From the NCBI GenBank assembly GCA_003389385.1, contig QQVM01000021.1, positions 137,920 through 201,919 on the forward strand: DNA of 64,000 bases, given 5' to 3'. The notes under the pieces are model-generated. The model had not been told where the DNA came from. It searched no databases and saw nothing but the letters and a program-made list of their open reading frames with translations. How positions within the stretch are numbered: position 1 is the first letter of the stretch; every line of letters begins with the position of its first letter. Position numbers and translations under genes: made by a program. Shown here piece after piece: positions 24,210 through 52,744 of the stretch. Source of the DNA: Bacteroidota bacterium (GTDB taxonomy: Bacteria; Bacteroidota; Bacteroidia; AKYH767-A; 2013-40CM-41-45).

Positions 24210-24459
24210 CGAAAATATGTGAAGGAGACAGTCTGAATGGCATTTACTTCAGAATTAAAAATATGAAAATCAATAAATTAAGTGGATGAAATTTGATCTG
24301 GTCATTAATCATTGGAAAAATCAATGGATGATTTAAATTATTAGATTATATTTAGTACTTGGGGGGGTTAATAAGTATTGTTTATTTATATCAAACAGAC
24401 ACTTGTCTTGAAGAAGGCATTTCTTTTATTTGCCTTAAAAAACTTTCACAATTTATTTT

Positions 24460-24795
24460 ATGATCCAGGCTCTTATTGTTGAAGATGATCCTATTAGTGT
24501 TGAAATGCTCAGAGATTTCCTTGATGATTCCGGTGAGCCCATACAAGTTATAGACCATTGCGGAACAGTTAAATCTGCTGTAAACAAGATCACTAAACTA
24601 AATCCTGAACTGGTTTTTCTGGATGTTGAGTTAGCCGACGGAAGCTGTTTTGACGTTCTTCAGAATATCGGTACTATCAATTTTGAAATTATAATCATTA
24701 CATCGCACGACCGGTATGCCATGCAGGCAGTGAAGTATAGTGCGCTTGATTATTTAATCAAACCAATTAAATCAACGAGCTCAAATCCGCATTGA
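24460..24795 (+). CDS. LytTR-family response regulator, receiver part (gene split by frameshift)
   Basis: 111-aa receiver domain: acidic pocket ED at 8-10, phospho-acceptor Asp55 (LVFLDVELADG), Thr81 (IIITSHD) and Lys101 (YLIKPI). After KPI the frame runs into KSTSSNPH and a stop at 24793. The expected linker (INELKSALKKVGK) continues in another frame from 24771, leading straight into the LytTR domain. One missing base around 24766-24771 explains this; restoring it gives a normal ~245-aa LytTR regulator. Whether it is a true mutation or a sequencing/assembly error cannot be told from one sequence. No histidine kinase gene is adjacent. Confidence 0.85.
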   Translation: MIQALIVEDDPISVEMLRDFLDDSGEPIQVIDHCGTVKSAVNKITKLNPELVFLDVELADGSCFDVLQNIGTINFEIIIITSHDRYAMQAVKYSALDYLIKPIKSTSSNPH

Positions 24796-24812
24796 AGAAA
24801 GTTGGGAAGAGG

Positions 24813-25193
24813 ATGACAGGAAATGAGCATAAGCTCAGTCCCAAGGACAGGAATAATTTCAAACCTTCAGAAAAAGTTGCTGTTCCAACATTTGAAGGAT
24901 TACTTTTTATTCCGATTTCTGATATTATCAGGATTCAAAGCGACCGTAATTACACAGATTTTTACCTGACAGAGAAGCGAAATGTAGTGGTTACAAAATC
25001 ACTCAAAGAGTTTGAAGCATTACTTTCTGAATCAGGATTCATCAGGATTCATCATAGCCATATGATCAACATCAACCATCTTGTCAAGTACATAAAAGGC
25101 GACGGCGGATATGTCATTATGAGCGATCAAAGCAAAGTGGATGTTTCAAGAAGGAAAAAGGAGGACTTTTTGCAGCTTCTGACAAAGGCATAA
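24813..25193 (+). CDS. LytTR DNA-binding part of the frameshifted response regulator
   Basis: LytTR domain: KVAVPTFEGLLFIPISDIIRI, then YTDFYLTEKR, VTKSLKEFEALL, GFIRIHHSHMININHL and VDVSRRKKEDFLQLL, all standard for the family that binds paired direct repeats. The frame is open from 24771. As an independent gene it could start at TTG 24792 or ATG 24813, giving a receiver-less DNA-binding protein of about 126 aa; as part of the original gene it continues from the receiver half. The repeat array at 25202-25291, just after the stop, is a plausible binding target. Either half could still be expressed separately. Confidence 0.85.
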   Translation: MTGNEHKLSPKDRNNFKPSEKVAVPTFEGLLFIPISDIIRIQSDRNYTDFYLTEKRNVVVTKSLKEFEALLSESGFIRIHHSHMININHLVKYIKGDGGYVIMSDQSKVDVSRRKKEDFLQLLTKA

Positions 25194-25201
25194 ATTTTCT
25201 G

Positions 25202-25291
25202 CCACTTATCCAGAATATTCAACCACTTATCCAGTAAACGTTCCACTTGTTAAATGGTGCTATCACTTATACTTAAACTGGAGTTACTTTG
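25202..25291 (+). repeat. Phased direct-repeat array, candidate LytTR operator
   Basis: Four related octamers start at 25202 (CCACTTAT), 25223 (CCACTTAT), 25243 (CCACTTGT) and 25263 (TCACTTAT). A weaker fifth starts at 25284 (TTACTTTG). Spacing is 21, 20, 20 and 21 bp, two helical turns, so all units lie on one face of the DNA. The first two are identical over 12 bp (CCACTTATCCAG). LytTR proteins bind direct repeats about 21 bp apart, and the array starts 9 bp after the LytTR stop codon. No open gene follows on the plus strand before a terminator at 25430. Confidence 0.6.
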
Positions 25292-25429
25292 GTTGACCAA
25301 TTCAACTACATGTCAACTCTTCCTATTTTTACGCTTTATGAACCAATGACAGTAGATGGTGAATTGATTGCTGGGTCGCAGCGGCAATCTTTTTGAAACC
25401 TGATCTTAGATTCAGGTGATTGGTCTAAG

Positions 25430-25456
25430 CCGGCAGAAACCCTGCCGGTTTTTTTT
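25430..25456 (+). terminator. Terminator ending the LytTR region
   Basis: CCGGCAG (25430-25436) and CTGCCGG (25442-25448) with a 5-nt loop, followed by T8. It lies 237 nt after the LytTR stop codon, so it ends either a long 3' UTR or a separate small RNA that starts near the repeat array. Its T-tract touches the convergent receiver gene's stop codon. Confidence 0.9.
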
Positions 25457-25953
25457 CAGGTCATTCTGATGATAATGATTCCCAGAACGAGGGCAATGAG
25501 TAGAATTCCCAGGAAAATATTGAAAAATTTTTGAGTGCCCAGGTTTTTTCTCAAATCGGAATGCCCAAGCAAATTATTTGTGATAATACTGAGTCTGTGA
25601 AAGGCATGTTCGTTTTTTACAACATAATCATATGCACCATATTTCATGGTATTGGCTGCCACTTCCGCTTTTTCCTGCCCAGAAAGGAAAATAACCGGAA
25701 CATCCGGAAACCGGGTTTTAAGTTTCTTCAGCACCTGCATTCCATTCATTGCTGCAGGATCGCTGGAGTCAAGATGATAGTCCAGAACAATCATGTCTGG
25801 AGTTAAGTATATATCCTGTAAGGCTCTTTCTCCGGAAGAAAAGTAAATAAGTTCTGATGCAGGATAGTTTGTTTTAAAAAAATCCTTCAGCATTTCGGAC
25901 ATGCTGGCATCATCGTCAATCAGAATAATTTTTATAGGTCGATCGGTGTACAT
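25456..25953 (-). CDS. Single-domain response regulator with C-terminal membrane anchor
   Basis: 165-aa protein. Residues 6-130 are a receiver domain with DDD at 13-15, phospho-acceptor Asp58 (MIVLDYHLD), Ser91 (VIFLSGQ) and Lys113 (YVVKNE). Instead of a DNA-binding output it ends in one strongly hydrophobic helix at about 143-162 (FFNIFLGILLIALVLGIIII), then RMT. A receiver tethered to the membrane by a C-terminal helix is unusual; it could be a phosphate sink or could bind a membrane partner. It is convergent with the LytTR gene. The next minus-strand gene upstream (AddA-like) ends 69 bp away. No kinase gene is nearby. Confidence 0.85.
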   Translation of the reverse strand: MYTDRPIKIILIDDDASMSEMLKDFFKTNYPASELIYFSSGERALQDIYLTPDMIVLDYHLDSSDPAAMNGMQVLKKLKTRFPDVPVIFLSGQEKAEVAANTMKYGAYDYVVKNEHAFHRLSIITNNLLGHSDLRKNLGTQKFFNIFLGILLIALVLGIIIIRMT

Positions 25954-45992: not shown

Positions 45993-46103
45993 CGTGCTTA
46001 GGTTTTAAAGTATTTCGATTGCCGGTTCTTTATTCTGATGTAAAAGTAGATAATTTCTTCCCTCGGAAGTCTTTAGAAAACAAATCAAATAGGGAGAAAA
46101 AAT

Positions 46104-46202
46104 ACGGGTAAGCTACCTATATCGCACCGCTCAACCATTTATCCTTGCTCCGTTCCCGGCCTGGGGAGGTTCACAGGAGCTGGTCGTATAGGACTTACCC
46201 GC
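46104..46202 (-). ncRNA. ffs: Bacterial small signal recognition particle RNA (4.5S-type)
   Basis: On the minus strand the ends GGGTAAG and CTTACCC pair (46200-46194 with 46112-46106), followed inward by further paired segments. The tip has the universal domain IV: CCAGGCCGGGAACGGAGCAAGG, a GGAA tetraloop closed by CCG/CGG with the symmetric and asymmetric internal loops that bind Ffh. About 97 nt, the size of the Alu-less bacterial form. A T-rich stretch follows the 3' end (minus-strand TATTTTTTCTCC), and a TACTTTTG -7 box ends 3 nt upstream of the 5' end. Confidence 0.95.
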
Positions 46203-46205
46203 GCG

Positions 46206-46213
46206 CAAAAGTA
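46206..46213 (-). promoter_or_regulatory. Promoter -7 box of the SRP RNA gene
   Basis: TACTTTTG on the minus strand fits TAnnTTTG and sits right at the distance expected for transcription to start at the SRP RNA 5' end. The -33 element is weak. Confidence 0.6.
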
Positions 46214-52694: not shown

Positions 52695-52697
52695 GTA

Positions 52698-52729
52698 AAA
52701 AAAATGCCGGCTATGACCGGCATTTTTTT
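52698..52729. terminator. Bidirectional terminator between the TonB-C and M43 protease genes
   Basis: AAAAAAATGCCGG (52698-52710) and CCGGCATTTTTTT (52717-52729) form a 13-bp stem with a 6-nt loop, usable in both directions. Confidence 0.93.
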
Positions 52730-52744
52730 ATTCATTCACTCAGT

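Follow-up and report, generated by a model that had tools for sequence, protein, structure and literature searches.

Directly behind the gene for a LytTR response regulator, the window (the whole 64,000-nt stretch of Bacteroidota DNA analysed here) carries an array of direct repeats, which probably (we put it at about 0.77) serves as a LytTR activator operator of three to four sites with a 20–21 bp period and would drive an RNA of ~160 nt. The array and its spacing are conserved together with the LytTR gene in related genomes, it keeps a set distance from a candidate promoter element, and it is followed by a covarying hairpin and a terminator in a region without a conserved open reading frame (ORF). 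From these sequence features we infer that LytTR binds and activates here, that the transcript exists and that it acts as a regulator. Coordinates are collected in Table 1.

Table 1. Features of the locus in window coordinates; G000 is the window genome.
Feature	Position	Strand	Remarks
LytTR response regulator, receiver (REC) half	24460–24795	+	Pfam PF00072, 1.4e-15; frame broken near the end
Same regulator, LytTR DNA-binding half	24792–25193	+	Pfam PF04397, 1.6e-18; 72–73% identical to G001
Putative operator unit 1, CCACTTATCC	25202–25211	+	CCACTT invariant in 4 genomes
Putative operator unit 2, CCACTTATCC	25223–25232	+	TTATC invariant in 4 genomes
Putative operator unit 3, CCACTTGTTA	25243–25252	+	Also clear in G005 and at three further promoters of G001; weak at the RNA promoters of G001 and G006
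Putative operator unit 4, TCACTTATAC	25263–25272	+	Only in the window genome; overlies the −33 region
Candidate −7 promoter element, TTACTTTG	25284–25291	+	TTTG (25288–25291) invariant in four genomes; predicted transcription start ~25296
Predicted noncoding RNA, ~160 nt	25296–25458	+	Conserved in G000, G001, G005, G006; no shared reading frame
Hairpin P3	25366–25389	+	Stem covariation; invariant loop GGGTCGCAGCG at 25373–25383
Intrinsic terminator of the predicted RNA	25427–25458	+	10-bp stem, T-run on the + strand
Lone receiver domain with hydrophobic C-terminal segment	25456–25953	−	PF00072, 2.5e-16; convergent neighbour

The repeat array and its distance to a candidate promoter element

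The array is real and stands far above chance. The units starting at 25202 and 25223 match CCACTTAT at 8 of 8 positions, those at 25243 (CCACTTGT) and 25263 (TCACTTAT) at 7 of 8, and the spacings are 21, 20 and 20 bp. Taken as a chain, the four units score 30 of 32, the best value in the window, compared with a maximum of 24 among 60 first-order Markov shuffles of the entire 64-kb window; elsewhere on the two strands no chain comes close to this score. A three-unit PWM chain, built with the window's own units included, scored 46.4 at the array and at best 3.9 (forward strand) and 8.1 (reverse strand) elsewhere in the window. Four repeats at these positions, as proposed in the first-pass annotation, are thus borne out, but the weaker fifth unit that it placed at 25284 is not: it matches at only 4 of 8 positions, and the TTTG within it forms invariant alignment columns across four genomes, at the place expected of a −7 box.

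Comparison within the source family of 11 genomes, in which G001 belongs to the same genus as the window genome and G005 and G006 represent two further genera, shows that the order of LytTR gene, array, TTTG, invariant GGGTCGCAGCG and noncoding region with terminator is kept in all four (three genera), with pairwise identities of 46–56% over the whole intergenic stretch. The array lies right behind the LytTR gene in each of them, as had been described for the window, and the search for the array and its neighbours in relatives that the annotation had suggested also yielded a two-unit version in G010, which has the LytTR gene and a terminator-like hairpin without the loop. Units of the form CCACTTRTMC with a 20–21 bp period are found in four to five genomes, with the spacing kept; in G003, G004 and G007, the DNA surrounding the receiver gene that neighbours the locus has neither array nor LytTR gene. 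The longest four invariant runs of the intergenic region are CCACTT in unit 1, TTATC in unit 2, TTTG and GGGTCGCAGCG; the last, an 11-nt run in the predicted RNA loop, was equalled in none of 20,000 column shuffles. Good units vary in number (four in G000, three in G005, about two to three in G006 and two in G001), so the presence of four units is not itself conserved.

The promoter consensus of Bacteroidota includes a −7 box, TAnnTTTG, that spans −12 to −5 (PMC9723704). The invariant TTTG fits this box, which places the predicted start near 25296 and the unit centres near −90, −69, −48 and −28 relative to it. The second base of the −7 box is off consensus in most copies, and no −33 box is evident at the predicted promoter. 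Between unit 1 and TTTG the alignment of G000, G001, G005 and G006 is gap-free, and the two lie 86 nt apart at all four RNA promoters.

This geometry recurs outside the locus. The annotation had also suggested scanning this genome for CCACTTAT-type pairs. In the window genome the array is the sole occurrence of the exact pattern CCACTTAT-N11-14-CCACTT; related arrays are found in G001 and G006. Pairs of the form CCANTTNT gave a mixed picture elsewhere, with many matches in coding sequence that are probably due to chance and with counts barely above a reversed-pattern control in several genomes. G001 has three clear intergenic three-unit arrays. Two of them, CCACTTRT arrays in G001:C15 (L225, from 876 and from 2031), each stand 86 nt before TTTG and precede lipoprotein genes that are paralogous to each other and have no Pfam match; the third, in G001:C20 (L226, reverse strand from 588), has TTTG at 85 nt and is followed by ~270 nt with strong terminator hairpins and no ORF of note, and perhaps likewise controls a second short RNA or peptide. 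The distance from unit 1 to TTTG is thus 86 nt in six arrays and 85 nt in the seventh. With TTTG as frequent as it is in the window, the probability that chance would produce this distance three times independently is ~2e-6, a figure that is overstated because the two lipoprotein promoters are paralogous; counting two independent matches gives the weaker value of ~2e-4. In G006:C58 (L228, reverse strand from 604), a two-unit array precedes three tandem small GG-leader peptides, which match the bacteriocin-like leader NF047798 weakly and below its cut-off, and TTAG stands in the place of TTTG at 66 nt, which is 86 minus one period (counted from the sequence). The annotation's reading of the array as a LytTR operator is supported by the comparison, with the period kept in relatives and with motif, period and TTTG distance recurring at other predicted G001 transcripts.

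In the window, the regulator gene is split by a frameshift between the receiver and DNA-binding domains, and the two halves otherwise look intact; the orthologues in G001, G005 and G006 are intact single ORFs. The frameshift may be real, in which case the switch may be off in the window genome, or it may be an assembly error. A run of seven G at 24361–24367, ~90 bp upstream of the LytTR gene, is a possible slippage site. The convergent lone receiver gene is syntenic in G001, G006 and G010 and somewhat more distant in G005, and its hydrophobic C-terminal segment is a possible membrane anchor. No sensor kinase or peptide gene was found adjoining the LytTR regulator at the locus, and an orthologue search in named relatives gave, among the matches listed, distant LytTR and receiver proteins and no useful orthologue.

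A predicted noncoding RNA with an invariant loop

The first-pass annotation saw no obvious protein gene downstream of the array and called the output of the array puzzling. The former observation stands, as no convincing gene was found between 25296 and 25456 and a conserved noncoding region with a terminator follows the array, and the puzzle is resolved once the predicted noncoding RNA 3' of the array is recognised. At the sequence level, promoter element, hairpin and terminator lie directly behind the putative operator without a shared ORF, and a stem plus T-run on the RNA strand is also present in G001, G005 and G006.

Hairpin P3 was compared in five sequences, those of G000, G001, G005 and G006 and a second G000 copy at G000:C1:95407–95442 (L019, about 1489–1524), whose loop GGGTCGCAGCGGCA is identical. 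Five of the 10 stem pairs are changed on both sides (compensatory), and 89% of the P3 cells are paired, compared with 17–54% in slid controls. This second hairpin is flanked by a PAS histidine kinase gene and, on the opposite strand, a receiver gene; if read on that opposite strand, its loop would complement that of the RNA.

A model of the hairpin matches G000, G001, G005 and G006 at E values of 4e-10 to 1.4e-7, the same sequences from which it was built. Across the order nothing else fell below E 0.03, and the extra matches examined among 395 class genomes (E 1e-4 to 1e-2) are hairpins with other loops. For the exact loop, searched across 295 class genomes, the matches listed outside the family have no stem. 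A plasmid search with the RNA sequence gave no match, and in Rfam 15 no family, RNAIII included, reached its gathering score, with relaxed-threshold matches amounting to noise. A near-palindromic hairpin at window positions 52695–52732 gives low scores against the RNA model on each of the two strands and is probably an unrelated terminator.

For the rest of the RNA, outside P3 and the terminator, the fold is no more than suggestive. Individual folds point to a closed multi-branch structure in which ACCAAT at the 5' end pairs with ATTGGT before the terminator, and single-sequence fold z-scores without the terminator range from −1.2 to −2.0. P2 and P3 together were not above shuffles in the unadjusted MAFFT alignment, and with the plain MAFFT alignment (A6) as input both RNAalifold and the counting of pairs gave weak signals because bulges shift the helices out of register. 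A search for targets complementary to the loop returned sites mostly inside ORFs, none of them convincing.

Proposed activation and alternative readings

LytTR regulators bind direct repeats of 9–11 nt with 11–13 nt between them (PMC4847170), and most activate from upstream (PMC11347149). Since the array fits this spacing and adjoins a PF04397 gene in every genome in which it precedes the RNA, we take it as the putative activator operator of the RNA, to be used by the response regulator encoded just upstream or by a close paralogue. In this model, LytTR monomers in their phosphorylated form would occupy the CCACTTRT half-sites every two turns (20–21 bp) along one helix face and would bring RNA polymerase to a weak promoter whose sole element is a −7 box (T[TA]nnTTTG-like), 86 nt from unit 1. 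The predicted transcript of ~160 nt would end at the terminator and expose the invariant loop GGGUCGCAG on the conserved hairpin. Its output is likely to be regulation by small RNA through this loop, which may be a pairing seed or a protein-binding site, acting on mRNA or protein.

It is conceivable, at odds we consider low, that hairpin and terminator instead form the LytTR 3' untranslated region and that the array has some other role, such as autoregulation through a block to read-through. The LytTR stop codon and the array are not separated by a terminator, which leaves the mRNA free to enter the RNA region; however, TTTG is invariant at 86 nt from unit 1, and this geometry is shared with G001 array promoters of unrelated genes. 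Somewhat less probable still is that the array controls a short peptide and not an RNA. Similar arrays do stand before lipoprotein genes in G001 and before GG-leader-like peptides in G006, and the locus has short ORFs of 28 aa in G000, 8 aa in G006 and 21 aa in G005, the last enclosing an 8-aa frame. However, none is common to the genomes, the frame in which the invariant loop is read differs between G000 and G001, the loop lies outside the ATG-started ORFs found in G005 and G006, and the changes in the hairpin stem are compensatory. The coding-peptide reading was rejected on the lack of a shared ORF and the compensatory stem.

Two further readings are very improbable. The units resemble DnaA boxes in that TTATCCAG[AT] is similar to TTATNCACA and TTATCCA is present in units 1 and 2, but a comparison of 23 units, partly picked by their CCA-TT-T core, shows that this core is kept whilst the TTATCC part varies in other units (TTGTTA, TTATAC, TTGTCG), and a DnaA box cluster has no need of a fixed distance to a promoter element; on these two grounds it was rejected. 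A chance or decayed, functionless tandem repeat would sit well with the frameshifted LytTR gene of this genome, yet position, period and TTTG distance are kept across three genera at about 50% identity, and the score of the array is far above that of the shuffles.

Relation to known LytTR systems

The first-pass annotation knew of no described LytTR operator with this many units, which is too strong, as the operators of RcoM1 and CoxC have three evenly spaced direct repeats with 12–13 bp spacers (PMC11347149). They share with the present array a LytTR-type site of more than two even direct repeats and a 20–21 bp period, but differ in motif (TTCNNGCA), in that their proteins are CO sensors and not response regulators, and in their protein-coding targets; the locus here has up to four units and a predicted RNA output. 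In Staphylococcus, the LytTR regulator AgrA drives the regulatory RNA RNAIII from P3, with two repeats per promoter (PMC4227749). The likeness, a LytTR response regulator gene adjoining a direct-repeat operator before an RNA, would be one of logic and not of homology, and differs in that the predicted RNA here matches no Rfam family and no sensor kinase or peptide gene was found next to the regulator. More than two LytTR units (RcoM1, CoxC; PMC11347149) and a LytTR-driven regulatory RNA (AgrA–RNAIII; PMC4227749) are thus not new in themselves; as far as searched, the RNA family, the 86-nt architecture and their combination in Bacteroidota appear to be new.

The best NCBIfam model for the G001 orthologue is NF008677 (BtsR), at 119 bits and below the cut-off of 246. 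The BtsR (YehT) box of Escherichia coli is ACC[G/A]CT[C/T]A, present twice with a 13-bp spacer, and BtsR targets a pyruvate transporter through two sites. This box matches ACCACTTA at 21 bp in the array; the BtsR system differs in its two sites and its transporter target, and the G001 orthologue is below the family cut-off. Rfp18 and other small RNAs of Flavobacterium belong to a Bacteroidota promoter landscape of the −7 TAnnTTTG type (PMC9723704). Rfp18 resembles the predicted RNA as a structured Bacteroidota small RNA with this promoter type, and differs in that LytTR is absent from that study (PMC9723704).

Literature searches found no worked-out LytTR operator in Bacteroidota. LytTR regulators are common in this phylum, and the locus gives a motif, a period and a promoter distance that can be used for reading LytTR regulons across it. 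If the proposed activation is true, control of a regulatory RNA by a LytTR regulator extends to another phylum. We regard as tentative, and rather doubtful, the wider proposal that an undescribed Bacteroidota RNA family with the GGGUCGCAG loop would be the main output of the regulator and that in relatives the array promoter would extend its control to lipoproteins, a second short transcript and bacteriocin-like GG peptides, forming an agr-like signalling regulon outside Firmicutes with an operator beyond the usual pair. The locus also points to a small RNA family absent from Rfam. Elsewhere in the window, the Bacteroidales small SRP RNA (RF04183) lies at 46102–46207 on the reverse strand.
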